The notes below the pieces were generated by a model, which was not told the origin of the DNA, did no database searches, and was given only the letters and a program-made list of their open reading frames with translations. From Pyxidicoccus sp. MSG2 (GTDB lineage: Bacteria; Myxococcota; Myxococcia; Myxococcales; Myxococcaceae): 64,000 bases of DNA. Below are positions 39,162 through 51,360 of the stretch, piece after piece; the stretch's first letter is position 1, and every line of letters starts with the position of its first letter. The stretch is taken from contig NZ_JAPNKC010000001.1 of assembly GCF_026626705.1 (NCBI RefSeq), positions 7,396,001 through 7,460,000 of the forward strand, written 5' to 3'. The position numbers were made by a program, and so were the translations under genes.

Positions 39162-40643
39162 ATGGGGTTCGCGGAGCATTACCTCTCGGGGATGATGCAG
39201 AGCTCGGCGGAGGTGCTGGGCCGGCATGGCTACGAGCACGTGAAGGCCGAGGAGCTGGCCCGGTCCGTGGGCATGTCGGTGGGCAGCTTGTACCGGCGCT
39301 ACGGCAGCAAGCAGCACTTCGCCCAGACGGTGCGGAGCTTCCACGAGGACACCTTCTGCCGGGAGGTGGACTGGGCCTTCTTCTGCAAGCATGGGGCGGA
39401 CGGCGTCAGCTTCCGAGAGGCCTTCTTCACCTTCTGGAATGCGCTGACGCACTGGGCTCTGGGGCTGCCCGGCCCTTTCGCCTTCGCCTTCCTGCACAGG
39501 CACCCGGAAGTCGAAGGGCAGCCGGCGCCTGGCAGTGCGGCGCGGGCCATGGTGCGAGAGGTGCTCCTGAAGGGAGAGCAGGAGGGGGCGCTGGTGCCCG
39601 GCTGCGCCCGGGTGGGCGAAGCGCTGGTGTGGGGCACGCTGGCGGAGTGGGTGCGCGTGCTGACGGAGAGGAACAAGGAGGTGTACCGGGAGGACGTCCT
39701 CGAATCGGCGGAGGCCCTCTGGCGCGCGTTGGCGAAGGTGGACGACTCCGGCGGCTCGCGCCGAGACGGCACTCCTCCTGGTGCCACTCAGCCCGAGTCA
39801 CAGGCGGCTGTGGTCGACTCCGGCGGCTCCCCTGGGGACGGCACTCCTCCTGGTGCCGCTCAACCAGAGTCACCGACGACGGAGGACGACTCCGACGAGC
39901 CACGTGATGGCGGCATCTCTCCTGGTGTCGAGCAGCAGGTGCCAGTGGAGGATTCCAACAGGCTTCGTGGGAGCGGTGCTTTGCGTGGCGTCGCACGGCC
40001 AGCGCCACGGACGTCGGTGGAGTGCTCTGCCGTCTCCCACGAGGAGGGCACTCCTCTTCCTGGCGCACCCGGTTCGAACCCTCGGTGCCGCCAACGCGCC
40101 CGGCAACCCCAGCTTCGTGCCGTGGGAATGGTCAGCAACCGTCTTCCCCGGCATCCGAGTCCACGGAGGCCCGCGCACAAGCGCCCAGCCTGGATGGCGA
40201 TTGGCGAATCGAGGCGGACCCTTCCTTCGCCCGGAGTGGGCCACGGCAGGCGCTTCGTCTGCATGGGCCTGGACGGACGTGCGCCGTTTTCTCCCGTGTC
40301 TCGAATGAGCCCGGCCTTTCGGAAGGCGCCACGTAACTTCCGGCCGCCTCCCGGGTTGAACCCCCTGCCATGCGTTTTCTGCCCCTCTGGTCCGTGGTGG
40401 CCGTCCTGCTCTCGTGTGCGGGCAATTCCCACCCGCCGGTCGCGTCTCCCTCCGAGCCGCCGCCCTTTGACGAGGCGCGCGCGGTACATGTCCTCCGCCG
40501 CCTGGCCTTCGGACCTTCCGCCAGGGATATGGGCGAGGTGCGGCGGTTGGGCGTGGAGGGCTGGGTGGAGGCGCAGCTCGCCCGCTCGGACGGGAAGCCA
40601 CCGCCGGAACTGGAGGCGAAGCTCCAGGCGCTCCCCACGCTGA
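39162..40643 (+). CDS. TetR/AcrR-family regulator with unusual in-frame repeat tail
   Basis: 493 residues if read to the first stop; a typical TetR protein is about 200. Residues 1-60 hold the HTH (AEELARSVGMSVGSLYRRYGSKQHF), and residues 60-192 form the helical ligand domain (FREAFFTFWNALTHWAL). From about residue 193 the frame continues through imperfect 24-residue repeats (DSGGSxxDGTPPGAxQPES) and then a Pro/Arg/Ser-rich stretch. It overlaps the first 274 bp of the next gene in another frame. AGGAGGGGG precedes the ATG. The regulator part is certain; whether the tail after about residue 310 is made as protein is doubtful. Confidence 0.8.
   Translation: MGFAEHYLSGMMQSSAEVLGRHGYEHVKAEELARSVGMSVGSLYRRYGSKQHFAQTVRSFHEDTFCREVDWAFFCKHGADGVSFREAFFTFWNALTHWALGLPGPFAFAFLHRHPEVEGQPAPGSAARAMVREVLLKGEQEGALVPGCARVGEALVWGTLAEWVRVLTERNKEVYREDVLESAEALWRALAKVDDSGGSRRDGTPPGATQPESQAAVVDSGGSPGDGTPPGAAQPESPTTEDDSDEPRDGGISPGVEQQVPVEDSNRLRGSGALRGVARPAPRTSVECSAVSHEEGTPLPGAPGSNPRCRQRARQPQLRAVGMVSNRLPRHPSPRRPAHKRPAWMAIGESRRTLPSPGVGHGRRFVCMGLDGRAPFSPVSRMSPAFRKAPRNFRPPPGLNPLPCVFCPSGPWWPSCSRVRAIPTRRSRLPPSRRPLTRRARYMSSAAWPSDLPPGIWARCGGWAWRAGWRRSSPARTGSHRRNWRRSSRRSPR
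39738..40088 (+). repeat. degenerate 72-bp tandem repeat inside the tetR tail
   Basis: Units begin near 39738, 39810, 39882, 39945 and 40017 (spacings 72, 72, 63, 72, all multiples of three). The first two are most alike, sharing GACTCCGGCGGCTC and GACGGCACTCCTCCTGGTGCC; later ones are increasingly diverged. The conserved triplet periodicity means all units stay in the regulator's reading frame. Confidence 0.75.
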
Positions 40644-41995
40644 CGATGTCGATGGCCGACCTCGCGCGCGACTTCCCGGCGAAGAAGCAGCGGGAACAGG
40701 CGCTGCTGGACGGGCGCGAGCTGCAGCGTCCCGCGCTCATCGTCTACGACCTGTCCGCCGCCAAGGTGCTGCGCGCGGTGGAGAGTCCGAACCAGCTCGA
40801 AGAGGTGCTGGTGGACTTCTGGTTCAACCACTTCAACGTGTCGGCGGAGAAGGGCGCGGCGCGGTGGATGGTGACGTCCTACGAGCGCGACGCCATCCGC
40901 CCACACGTCTTCGGCCGCTTCCGAGAGTTGCTCGGAGCGACGGCCCGCCACCCGGCGATGCTCTTCTACCTGGACAACTGGCGGAGCACCCGCGACGGCA
41001 TGCCGAGGCTCCTGCGCCGGGACGCGCGGCCCGCGGACCTGTCCGGGGACGACGCCATGGCGGAGCCGGACGAAGAGGAGGAGCCCCGGCCCGGCCTCAA
41101 CGAGAACTACGCGCGCGAGCTGCTCGAGCTGCACACGCTGGGCGTGGACGGCGGCTACACGCAGCAGGACGTTCGCGAGGTGGCGCGCTGCTTCACCGGC
41201 TGGAGCATCCGTCGGCCACGCCGCGAGCCCGAGTTCGTCTTCCGCCGCAGGGCGCATGACCCGGACGAGAAGCGCGTGCTCGGGCAGCGCATTGCCTCGG
41301 GAGGGAACCTGGAGGATGGCGAGCGGGTGCTGGACCTGCTCGCGCGTCACCCCGCCACCGCGCGGCACCTCGCGACGAAGCTGGCGCAGCGGTTCGTCTC
41401 GGACACGCCGCCGCCCGCGCTGGTGGAGCGGGTGGCGAAGGCGTTTCTCGACTCGGATGGAGATTTGCGCACGGTGTACCGCGCGCTCTTCCAGGCGCCG
41501 GAGTTCTGGGCGTCCGAGGCGCGAGGGGCCAAGGTGAAGACGCCCTTCGAGTTCGTGGTGTCGGCGCTGCGGGCCACGGGGGCGGAGGTGACGGTGCGGC
41601 CGAGGCTCGTGCAGTCCCTGGCCCGGATGGGCGAGCCGCTCTACCGCGCGCCCGCGCCCACGGGCTTCCCGGAAGTCTCGGGGCCCTGGGTGAACAGCGG
41701 CGCGCTGGTGGCCCGGCTCAACTTCAGCCTGGAACTGGTCTCCGGACGGCTGCCCGGGACGCGCGTGACGTTGGGGGCACGGGCCACGCCGGCTACCCGC
41801 ACCGCGGAAGACACAGTGGATGCGCTCGGCCACGCGCTGATGGGAGCACCGCCCTCGGCGGAGACACGGGCCACCATCCTCGCCGCGCTGTCGAAGCGGG
41901 CAGAGGCAGCCAGCGCCGAGGGCGAGCAGGGCCCCGTGGACATTCCCCTCATCGCCGGGCTGCTGCTCGGCTCGCCGGAGTTCCAGAAGCAATGA
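40370..41995 (+). CDS. DUF1800 family secreted protein
   Basis: 541 residues. A short signal with a possible lipobox (LLSCAG) starts the protein. The DUF1800 body is clear: HVLRRLAFGPS near residue 40, DFWFNHFNVSAEKG, RDAIRPHVFGRF, the signature ENYARELLELHTLGVDGGYTQ, and FVSALRATGA-like and APTGFPEVSGPWVNSG segments toward the end. Function of the family is unresolved, but it is regularly encoded beside DUF1501 proteins, as here. Its 5' 274 bp overlap the open tail of tetR. The C terminus (IAGLLLGSPEF) is echoed by three downstream mini-ORFs. Confidence 0.9.
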   Translation: MRFLPLWSVVAVLLSCAGNSHPPVASPSEPPPFDEARAVHVLRRLAFGPSARDMGEVRRLGVEGWVEAQLARSDGKPPPELEAKLQALPTLTMSMADLARDFPAKKQREQALLDGRELQRPALIVYDLSAAKVLRAVESPNQLEEVLVDFWFNHFNVSAEKGAARWMVTSYERDAIRPHVFGRFRELLGATARHPAMLFYLDNWRSTRDGMPRLLRRDARPADLSGDDAMAEPDEEEEPRPGLNENYARELLELHTLGVDGGYTQQDVREVARCFTGWSIRRPRREPEFVFRRRAHDPDEKRVLGQRIASGGNLEDGERVLDLLARHPATARHLATKLAQRFVSDTPPPALVERVAKAFLDSDGDLRTVYRALFQAPEFWASEARGAKVKTPFEFVVSALRATGAEVTVRPRLVQSLARMGEPLYRAPAPTGFPEVSGPWVNSGALVARLNFSLELVSGRLPGTRVTLGARATPATRTAEDTVDALGHALMGAPPSAETRATILAALSKRAEAASAEGEQGPVDIPLIAGLLLGSPEFQKQ

Positions 41996-42063
41996 GCCCG
42001 CGACGCGCCTTCCGCCCCTTCGCCGGGCTGTTGCTCCGTGTGCCGGAGGTCACGAACCCATGA
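41992..42063 (+). CDS. mini-ORF 1 of three coupled copies (23 residues)
   Basis: The ATG overlaps the DUF1800 stop (ATGA). The peptide MSPRRAFRPFAGLLLRVPEV plus TNP resembles the DUF1800 C terminus (IAGLLLGSPEF). Its own stop overlaps the next mini-ORF's ATG, with GGAGGT about 10 bp upstream of that ATG. Whether the peptide matters or only carries ribosomes across the junction is unknown. Confidence 0.45.
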   Translation: MSPRRAFRPFAGLLLRVPEVTNP

Positions 42064-42122
42064 GCGTCTTCCGCCCCTTCGCCGGGCTGTTGCTCCGTGT
42101 GCCGGAGGTCACGAACCCATGA
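42060..42122 (+). CDS. mini-ORF 2 of three coupled copies (20 residues)
   Basis: Encodes MSVFRPFAGLLLRVPEVTNP. Start and stop are each embedded in ATGA overlaps with the neighbouring mini-ORFs. Sequence is identical to mini-ORF 3. Confidence 0.45.
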   Translation: MSVFRPFAGLLLRVPEVTNP

Positions 42123-42181
42123 GCGTCTTCCGCCCCTTCGCCGGGCTGTTGCTCCGTGTGCCGGAGGTCACGAACCCATGA
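42119..42181 (+). CDS. mini-ORF 3 of three coupled copies (20 residues)
   Basis: Same 20-residue peptide as mini-ORF 2. Its stop overlaps the ATG of the DUF1501 gene at 42178, whose Shine-Dalgarno (GGAGGT) lies inside this mini-ORF. Confidence 0.45.
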   Translation: MSVFRPFAGLLLRVPEVTNP

Positions 42182-43422
42182 GCGCCTCGCTCTCCCGCCG
42201 CCACCTGCTGCGCGTCCTGGGACTCTCGGGCGCGGGCCTCGTCCTCGCTCCGGGCTTCCTGGGCCGCGCGCTGGCCGCCAGTGCCAACAGCCCCGCTCGC
42301 CGCGCACTCGTCACCGTCTTCCTGCGCGGCGGCGTGGACGGCCTGTCCCTGGTGCCACCAGTGGAAGACTCGGCGTACCACCGTGCGCGTCCCACGCTGG
42401 CGCTGAAGTCGCCGGGCAGCGGCCCGGACGCCGCGCTGAAGCTGGACGGGCGCTTCGGCCTGCACCCGAAGCTGGAGCCCCTGCTCCCGCTGTGGAACGA
42501 GGGCCGGCTGGCGGTGCTGCACGGCGTGGGGCTGCCGGAGCCGGTGCGCTCGCACTTCGATGCGCAGGACTTCGTGGAGTCGGGCACGCCCGGGCGCAAG
42601 TCCACGCCGGACGGGTGGCTCAACCGCGCGCTGGAGGACGAGGAGGGAAGCGCCGCGCTGCGAGCGGTGGCACTCCAGCCCACGCTGCCCCGGGCGTTGT
42701 TCGGAAGCTCGGGCGCGCTGGCCATGGGACGCCTGGAGGAGTTCCGGCTCCGCGGAGGAAGGCGCGGCGAGGAGGCCGCCAGTGGCTTCAGCGCGCTCTA
42801 CGCGGGCGCGGTGGATGAAGCCCTGCGCACCACCGGGCAGGGCGCCTTCGAGGCGCTGTCGCGGCTGGACGAGGAGCGCCTGTCACGGCTGGCCCCGGCC
42901 TCGACGGTGGAGTACCCCAGGGGCCCGCTGGGACAGCGACTGCGGGACATCGCGAGGCTCCTCCGGGGCGACGTGGGGGTGGAGGTCGCGGCCACGGAGA
43001 TGGGCGGCTGGGACACGCACGCGGCGCAGGGCGCGGCGGCGGGCGTCTTCGCCAACCGGTGCCAGGAACTGGCGGGCGCGCTGTCGGCCTTCGCCGCGGA
43101 CCTGGGGCCGAAGCTGGAGCAGGTGACAGTGGTGGTGCTGACGGAGTTCGGCCGCACGGTGCGGGAGAATGGCAGCCGGGGCACGGACCACGGCGTGGGC
43201 AGTGCCATGCTGGTGCTCGGCGGAGGCGTGCGGGGCCGGAAGGTGTACGGCCGCTTCGACTCGCTGGCACCGGAGCACCTTCAGGACGGGCGCGACGTGC
43301 CCTCGTGGACGGACGTGCGCGCGCCGCTCGCGGAGGCGCTGCGCGCGTGCCGCCCTGGAGTGGACCTGGCGAAGGTGTTCCCGGGCTTCACTCCGCCAGC
43401 GCCACTGGGGCTGTTCGCGTAG
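42178..43422 (+). CDS. DUF1501 family Tat-exported protein
   Basis: 414 residues. The N terminus has a twin-arginine signal (SRRHLLRVLGLSGAGLVLAP). DUF1501 features follow: VFLRGGVDGLSLVPP, HYAxRP-like YHRARPTLAL, LHPKLEPLLPLWNEGRLAVLHGVG, SHFDAQDFVESGTPG, EMGGWDTHAAQG and TEFGRTVRENGSRGTDHGVG, which place it in the alkaline-phosphatase-like superfamily. It is the usual partner of DUF1800 proteins, and the pair is presumably exported to act together. Three coupled mini-ORFs lie between the two genes, an unusual arrangement. Enzymatic role unknown. Confidence 0.92.
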   Translation: MSASLSRRHLLRVLGLSGAGLVLAPGFLGRALAASANSPARRALVTVFLRGGVDGLSLVPPVEDSAYHRARPTLALKSPGSGPDAALKLDGRFGLHPKLEPLLPLWNEGRLAVLHGVGLPEPVRSHFDAQDFVESGTPGRKSTPDGWLNRALEDEEGSAALRAVALQPTLPRALFGSSGALAMGRLEEFRLRGGRRGEEAASGFSALYAGAVDEALRTTGQGAFEALSRLDEERLSRLAPASTVEYPRGPLGQRLRDIARLLRGDVGVEVAATEMGGWDTHAAQGAAAGVFANRCQELAGALSAFAADLGPKLEQVTVVVLTEFGRTVRENGSRGTDHGVGSAMLVLGGGVRGRKVYGRFDSLAPEHLQDGRDVPSWTDVRAPLAEALRACRPGVDLAKVFPGFTPPAPLGLFA

Positions 43423-51177: not shown

Positions 51178-51225
51178 GGCTCACGGAAGGGTCTGCCCGG
51201 GCCCCGCGGCCGACAGCCGGCGGAC

Positions 51226-51360
51226 GTGGAAGGAAGGTTCATTCCACGAGCCGGCCGCCCGGAGGGGGACATGGAAGGAAGGTTCATTCCACGAGCCGGC
51301 CGCCCGGAAGGGGACGGGGAAGGAACGTTCATTCCACCTGAGCCGGCCGCCCGGAAGGAG
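51226..51360. repeat. three 45-bp repeats between convergent genes
   Basis: Copies start at 51226, 51271 and 51316. Each has a 22-bp head of the type GTGGAAGGAAGGTTCATTCC plus AC (6-bp inverted ends in copy 1), then GAGCCGGCCGCCCGGAAGGGG. Copy 3 contains the symmetric core GAACGTTC. They lie in the 213 bp between the 3' ends of the aldolase and metallophosphoesterase genes, where they could fold into hairpins acting as a two-way terminator. The same head and flank occur once before tetR (39100). Confidence 0.85.

Follow-up and report, generated by a model that had tools for sequence, protein, structure and literature searches.

Why should a tandem array of very short open reading frames (ORFs) occupy the junction between two genes of a putative bacterial operon? 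The question is raised by a window of 64,000 nucleotides from Pyxidicoccus sp. MSG2 (contig NZ_JAPNKC010000001.1, positions 7,396,001 to 7,460,000 of the forward strand), in which a 59-bp repeat separates a DUF1800 gene from a DUF1501 gene; the genome, hereafter G000, comprises 13.34 Mb in 2 contigs. Both are domains of unknown function, and a published account predicts that they belong to one operon (PMC5122149). Our analyses indicate that the array probably arose by tandem duplication, in place, of a junction at which translation is coupled, and that it is tolerated because the termination-reinitiation relay from one gene to the other stays unbroken.

The array is oriented head-to-tail, with DUF1800 on its 5' side and DUF1501 on its 3' side, and obtained the top score (353) among the 19 rows returned by Tandem Repeats Finder (TRF) for the window (Table 1). 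The DUF1800 protein ends in IAGLLLGSPEFQKQ, and its stop codon (41993-41995) overlaps an ATG at 41992, as read in both the sequence and the ORF list. From there the chain runs through the DUF1800 stop, ATGA, 23 aa, ATGA, 20 aa, ATGA, 20 aa and ATGA into DUF1501, the encoded peptides being MSPRRAFRPFAGLLLRVPEVTNP once and then MSVFRPFAGLLLRVPEVTNP twice, each closed by an ATGA overlap. TRF, the sequence and the ORF list thus bear out the first-pass annotation, which had described from the letters alone a triple 59-bp repeat with ATGA-coupled peptides of 23, 20 and 20 residues. Its further statement that every repeat carries GGAGGT and ATGA holds for three of the joints, at which GGAGGT lies 9 nt 5' of the next ATG, but the first joint has GGAG only and the first ATGA-to-ATGA step measures 68 nt, the other two measuring 59 nt. 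A longer DUF1501 frame opening at GTG 42097 was set aside, since DUF1501 begins at the ATGA in relatives whose junction is direct.

The origin of the unit can be sought in the gene immediately upstream. The DUF1800 tail (41937-42001) joins the three units as a four-member ungapped repeat family (66% over 65 nt), and BLAST aligned the DUF1800 tail plus the first unit with two units at 82% (E 9.5e-27). Within G000 the unit is confined to one locus, all 35 BLAST candidates having been scored, and MIRU-type dispersal (mycobacterial interspersed repetitive units, in which the same repeat stands at many loci of a genome) was not found, the junction being the only locus. A 133-nt query covering the array, for which up to nine candidates per genome were scored, matched 9 of the 96 family genomes. 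In seven of these nine (G000, G022, G002, G016, G026, G019 and G020) the match lies at the junction or the adjoining DUF1800 end, while the matches in G063 and G104, of 27 and 34 nt respectively, lie on contigs other than those of their DUF1501 matches. A dispersed repeat element was consequently rejected, given the single locus in G000 and the position of seven of the nine family matches. As judged by similarity, the unit is a local copy of the DUF1800 3' end, which would explain where it came from, and the earlier suggestion that the junction itself had been copied is supported by both the BLAST and the repeat searches.

Comparison with relatives places the array in a series of junction types. 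DUF1800 was searched in 61 genomes (matches in 33) and DUF1501 in 96 (matches in 91, many of them distant), and junctions were compared using one genome per species. The genus sample comprised 27 genomes, of which 21 had both genes and had their junctions read; the six left uncounted either lacked a DUF1800 match (G008, G009, G013 and G014) or had one that was weak or partial (G010 and G015). Three of the 21 junctions are direct ATGA overlaps with a gap of 0 (G016, G019 and G011), six hold short inserts of 80-239 nt (G000, 186 nt; G022, 175; G002, 122; G020, 239; G026, 80; G021, 164), and 12 are uncoupled, with a gap of 227 nt in G023, the genes on separate contigs in G024, and about 1.5 to 32 kb between them in the remaining ten. 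DUF1800 ends in ATGA in 9/9 coupled and in a TAG stop in 12/12 uncoupled genus genomes. In another genus, Corallococcus carmarthensis (locus L037) has a 50-nt insert filled by a 17-aa frame, which recurs in G075. Direct junctions are also found beyond the genus, at loci L036, L038 and L039 and in genomes G074, G083, G085, G087, G088 and G089; six of the seven genomes read in the genus labelled g31 are direct and one (G075) is relayed. The ancestral state is most readily taken to be a direct ATGA overlap of DUF1800 and DUF1501, because the gap is 0 in G016, G019 and G011 and likewise at L036, L038 and L039, which the tree places outside those three genomes. G000 has three copies of the FAGLLLRVPEVTNP-type unit and G022 has one (preceded there, by eye, by two further degenerate tail-like copies); G002 has a single, diverged copy, and G019, G011 and G016 have none. 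The first-pass annotation had held that an identical repeat number in all relatives would count against it; the number differs between species, which is the level that our sampling addresses.

Each of the short inserts beginning with an ATGA (7/7) is filled by one or more frames running from ATGA to ATGA, of 23, 20 and 20 aa in G000, 36 and 23 in G022, 41 in G002, 80 in G020, 27 in G026, 55 in G021 and 17 in C. carmarthensis. By eye, an inner unit boundary in G002 and G020 reads ACGA for ATGA, and the frame reads through it. Dinucleotide shuffles in random phase produced a relay by chance in 12-26% of cases per insert, the product over the seven inserts being 2.5e-6 if they are independent. 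As every one of the seven shares this relay, preservation of coupling would seem to be the reason for their persistence.

We envisage an ancestor in which DUF1800 and DUF1501 overlapped by ATGA and a GGAG site was encoded in the last DUF1800 codons. The DUF1800 3' end and the overlap would have been copied in the ancestor of G000, G022 and G002 and would then have diverged, and a recent amplification in the species of G000 would have given rise to three nearly identical copies, each forming a short cistron with ATGA at its start and end. A ribosome finishing DUF1800 would reinitiate, read 20-23 codons and be passed along the chain to DUF1501, leaving no untranslated gap; the peptides would be by-products, and the retained feature would be the unbroken relay. 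In reporter studies, reinitiation in Escherichia coli and Haloferax drops steeply with distance, overlap or very short spacing being required, and the last 15 nt of the upstream gene are enough for it (PMC10666635); removal of the Shine-Dalgarno site substantially lowers reinitiation in 4/5 E. coli pairs (PMC6728339). Given this distance dependence, an insert of 50-240 nt would therefore largely abolish coupling unless it were translated up to the DUF1501 start. Retention of the relay may be explained by selection on coupling and against Rho-dependent polarity, and the number of copies would be expected to have little effect on DUF1501 output.

Several observations weigh against a duplicated junction kept for its relay, or narrow its reach. 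Among the 11 family junctions read that have a gap of 1-299 nt, four are unrelayed (G023, 227 nt; G034, 43; G090, 15; Hyalangium L040, 12), and none of these four (0/4) has ATGA at the DUF1800 end; the relay rule is conditional on that ATGA, holding in 7/7 with it and 0/4 without. Coupling is also dispensable over evolution, as 12/21 genus genomes lack it, and the family-wide reading of junctions took the best 30 DUF1501 loci, matches having been obtained in 91 genomes. Furthermore, the tree shows that the seven inserts share history and are not seven independent events: G020 is basal, followed by the direct junctions G019/G011, then G026, G002 and the pair G000 and G022. This order would be accommodated by three gains in the clade, or by a single gain followed by loss and replacement, in addition to C. 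carmarthensis and G021. When the same shuffle figures are multiplied over fewer events, the chance product becomes about 1e-4 for five lineages, about 3e-3 for three, and 2e-2 when only the Pyxidicoccus-type clade and C. carmarthensis are counted. The weakest case is G021, whose insert has no similarity to the DUF1800 tail (250/300 random segments score as well) and may represent a frame open by chance. Beyond the family, where 80 of 564 DUF1800 loci were examined, five loci combine ATGA at the end of DUF1800 with a gap of >30 nt; one (L058) is fully relayed, the frame at L074 ends just beyond the DUF1501 start, and L077, L095 and L096 are broken.

The uncoupled junctions have features of their own. 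The DUF1800/DUF1501 junction in G003, G004, G005, G012, G025 and the Myxococcus xanthus group (L143-L150) is an insertion hotspot, about 1.5 to 32 kb separating the two genes in ten genomes. Nine proteins scanned from five of these gaps (L143-L147) include an M50 peptidase, RCC1 repeats, PfpI, LysR and ankyrin repeats, together with a 1671-aa protein with AMP-binding, KR, PP-binding and hydrolase domains. That the large inserts are flanked by two copies of the DUF1800 tail was unsupported, as 18 to 236 of 300 random segments align equally well across the 12 uncoupled genomes. By eye, a short GGTGTTG-like motif recurs in the G021 insert and in several of the uncoupled species (L120-L131), about 40-80 nt 5' of where DUF1501 begins, and is perhaps part of DUF1501's own promoter.

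An alternative that is compatible with a duplicated junction, and that we regard as unlikely, is that duplication freed the DUF1501 ribosome-binding site from the DUF1800 coding sequence, in which GGAG is encoded within the SPEF codons, so that a stronger site could evolve next to DUF1501, with ribosomes still supplied by the relay, and the locus became a natural bicistronic design. Duplex energies were computed with anti-Shine-Dalgarno letters that we assumed for this purpose rather than read from the G000 genome. All six direct junctions tested (6/6) have GGAG at -6.1 kcal/mol, while the last site before DUF1501 reaches -10.2 in G000 and G002 and -10.0 in C. carmarthensis, where the site at the DUF1800 end falls to -2.4; in the remaining inserts the last site has -7.1 (G021), -6.9 (G020), -6.5 (G022) and, equal to direct junctions, -6.1 (G026). 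However, the 12/12 uncoupled DUF1501 genes, which are likewise unconstrained, attain only -5.6 to -6.9, 21 of 100 ordinary ATGA junctions sampled in G000 reach -10 (median -7.5), and the values of G000 and G002 reflect one shared origin.

A little less probable still is a slippage array that is neutral and without consequence, or an artefact of assembly. GC-rich DNA makes open frames cheap, as the 12-26% per insert illustrates, and a 71-bp intergenic array elsewhere in G000 has ATGA-to-ATGA frames without any junction. Against an artefact, related species have homologous but differing arrays at the same place, and a 180-bp array is short relative to ordinary reads; against neutrality, 7/7 of the ATGA-started inserts keep the relay. 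Other functions that the DNA itself might hold found no signal. The array folds no better than its shuffles (z +1.58; 94/100 shuffles at least as stable), which gives no indication of a structured RNA leader; Rfam returned no match at the gathering score and one far below it (20.1 of 70 bits), and a scan limited to sigma-70-like promoters and terminator-like sites detected neither in the array.

The number of units could also act as a tuner, each handoff multiplying DUF1501 synthesis by the efficiency of reinitiation and slippage setting the DUF1800:DUF1501 ratio. This proposal, already raised in the first-pass annotation and again compatible with a duplicated junction, draws on the difference in unit number between close species and on the near identity of the copies, which places their expansion recently. 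We nevertheless consider it quite improbable, since GGAGGT (-10.2 kcal/mol) at 3/4 joints could offset losses by fresh initiation, and sister species retain inserts of different sequence and length. A switch is similarly disfavoured: gain or loss of a 59-nt unit would leave DUF1501 coupled alike, and the inserts of sister species differ while the relay is constant.

More doubtful again is the idea of a frame-collecting relay, by which ribosomes coming off the DUF1800 end would still be handed to DUF1501, whatever their frame. Each ATGA-to-ATGA step is 2 mod 3 in length because the frame ends at an ATGA. The TGA of its ATGA is the sole stop of the 59-nt unit across all frames and, because the unit is otherwise stop-free and 59 is 2 mod 3, the three frames from the DUF1800 end in G000 all terminate on an ATGA of the chain, with TGA at 41993, 42061 or 42120. 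All frames are collected in G022 and G021 as well, the relay survives 46-52% of simulated single-base indels in G000, G022 and G002, and 6/6 direct junctions let an out-of-frame ribosome run 188 to 1418 nt beyond the DUF1501 start. However, four of the seven relayed inserts (G002, G020, G026 and C. carmarthensis) miss some frames, and in 4/7 no simulated indel is tolerated. If true, arrays of this type would withstand frameshifts as well as indels arising within them, providing a general reason for the persistence of 2-mod-3 repeats at coupling sites. Finally, that the mini-peptide (FRPFAGLLLRVPEVTNP) is a functional product amplified for dosage is highly improbable, for although all three changes in the last 17 codons between G000 and G022 are synonymous (3/3, too few to decide), in-frame pN/pS (nonsynonymous relative to synonymous differences) among the homologous units of G000, G022 and G002 is 0.25-0.67 (Fisher p 0.12-0.37), without significant constraint, and against G002 wrong frame 1 gives a lower ratio than the true frame, while the peptide has no Pfam match and different peptides stand at the same place in G020, G026, G021 and C. 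carmarthensis.

The closest known parallel to the duplicated junction is provided by MIRUs, which, according to a 2025 review of translational coupling, enter at start codons and carry an ORF coupled through a -4 nt spacing, likely sparing expression, and are interspersed and apparently mobile (PMC12548453). The senX3-regX3 array has three 77-bp units in strain H37Rv, and two of 77 and one of 53 in CDC1551, and promoter activity is reported for its region (PMC4213456). In both systems, short repeats lie at translational-coupling sites between operon genes, a repeat ORF is coupled at -4 nt (in the window by ATGA overlap with the neighbours' stop and start at 4/4 joints), and lengths are 2 mod 3 (77 and 53 in senX3-regX3, 59 and 68 here). 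In contrast to the interspersed MIRUs, the window unit is copied from the adjoining DUF1800 end and stands at one locus and, unlike in the senX3-regX3 region with its reported promoter activity, no sigma-70-like site was found in the array. The window array works like a MIRU array but does not behave as a dispersed element. With the ATGA termination-reinitiation pairs described in the literature (PMC6728339, PMC10666635) the array shares a 4-nt stop/start overlap and a Shine-Dalgarno-like site that lies within the upstream frame, but these pairs have one joint whereas the window has four in series through duplicated mini-cistrons. Bicistronic expression designs in biotechnology likewise employ a short ORF that brings the ribosome to a downstream gene (PMC12548453), but the window case is natural, lies between two operon genes and has three such ORFs in series. 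A search of open-licence literature found no description of a serial relay arrangement in myxobacteria.

A survey of 2.46 Mb of G000 (18%), based on ORFs of at least 100 aa with coding-like composition, identified 100 direct ATGA junctions. Mini-ORF chains joined by ATGA numbered three: that of the window, which is the only tandem array at a gene junction in the surveyed portion, and two that consist of one ORF each (80 and 10 aa) and are not repeats. The five-copy 71-bp array mentioned above (G000:C1 3359575) contains two ATGA-to-ATGA frames on the strand opposite to the flanking ORFs, and hence forms no junction. A scan that also allowed GTGA and TTGA joints was discarded in favour of the ATGA-only scan, as it returned many chance-like chains; in this looser scan the minus strand of the window array had [AGT]TGA chains, none of them with ATGA. 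Tandem arrays of other kinds were also encountered. Palindrome-bearing arrays (GGAAGGAACGTTCCTTCC-like) occur in the window at 51222-51358, as an imperfect copy, and at G000:C1 ~3066010, 3097578, 3359575 and 5194176, those at 3097578 and 3359575 being located between ORFs. The 13-mer GGAAGGAACGTTC has 36 matches on both strands of the 2.46 Mb (full palindromes counting twice), in two clustered blocks, and the GGAAGGAACGTTCCTTCC/GGAAGGAACGTTC arrays are a dispersed repeat family of G000. On the minus strand of G000:C1 3269924-3270021, a 47-bp array of 2.1 copies has no ATGA junction, and its copies resemble, by eye, the start region of the downstream gene.

Among named records, the DUF1800 protein was matched best by those of Myxococcus sp. 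RHSTA-1-4, Pyxidicoccus fallax and M. xanthus (the window's own genome possibly being excluded), and neither the DUF1800 nor the DUF1501 protein had a sequence match among solved structures at E 0.01. Upstream, a long ORF (39162-40643) with a TetR_N domain at its N terminus contains a 72-bp tandem repeat at 39733-39927, and its 3' part overlaps the DUF1800 start.

Table 1. Features of the DUF1800/DUF1501 junction, in window coordinates.
Feature	Position	Strand	Basis
DUF1800 gene, 541 aa, PF08811; upstream partner and apparent source of the repeat unit through its 3' end	40370..41995	+	Pfam E 2.3e-147; ORF
ATGA joint 1, DUF1800 stop / mini-ORF 1 start; upstream site GGAG	41992..41995	+	Sequence; -6.1 kcal/mol
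Mini-ORF 1, 23 aa, MSPRRAFRPFAGLLLRVPEVTNP	41992..42063	+	ORF list, junction reading
Tandem array, 59-bp unit (period 59), 3.1 copies, 99% match	42005..42184	+	TRF; ungapped repeat search
GGAGGT, Shine-Dalgarno-like site 5' of mini-ORF 2	42045..42050	+	Sequence; duplex -10.2 kcal/mol
Mini-ORF 2, 20 aa, ATGA at both ends	42060..42122	+	ORF list, junction reading
GGAGGT 5' of mini-ORF 3	42104..42109	+	Sequence; duplex energy
Mini-ORF 3, 20 aa, ATGA at both ends	42119..42181	+	Junction reading
GGAGGT 5' of DUF1501	42163..42168	+	Sequence; duplex energy
DUF1501 gene, 414 aa, PF07394; downstream partner, twin-arginine translocation (Tat)-like N terminus (SRRHLLR, by eye)	42178..43422	+	Pfam E 2e-32

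The comparison with mycobacteria suggests that a MIRU-like architecture, subject to the same length rule, can arise by local duplication outside that group. At this one locus, related bacteria offer a comparative series comprising direct overlap, a single insert, a triple copy and the fully uncoupled state, so that native parts can be used to measure what serial termination-reinitiation costs and how ribosome-binding sites evolve when confined within coding sequence.

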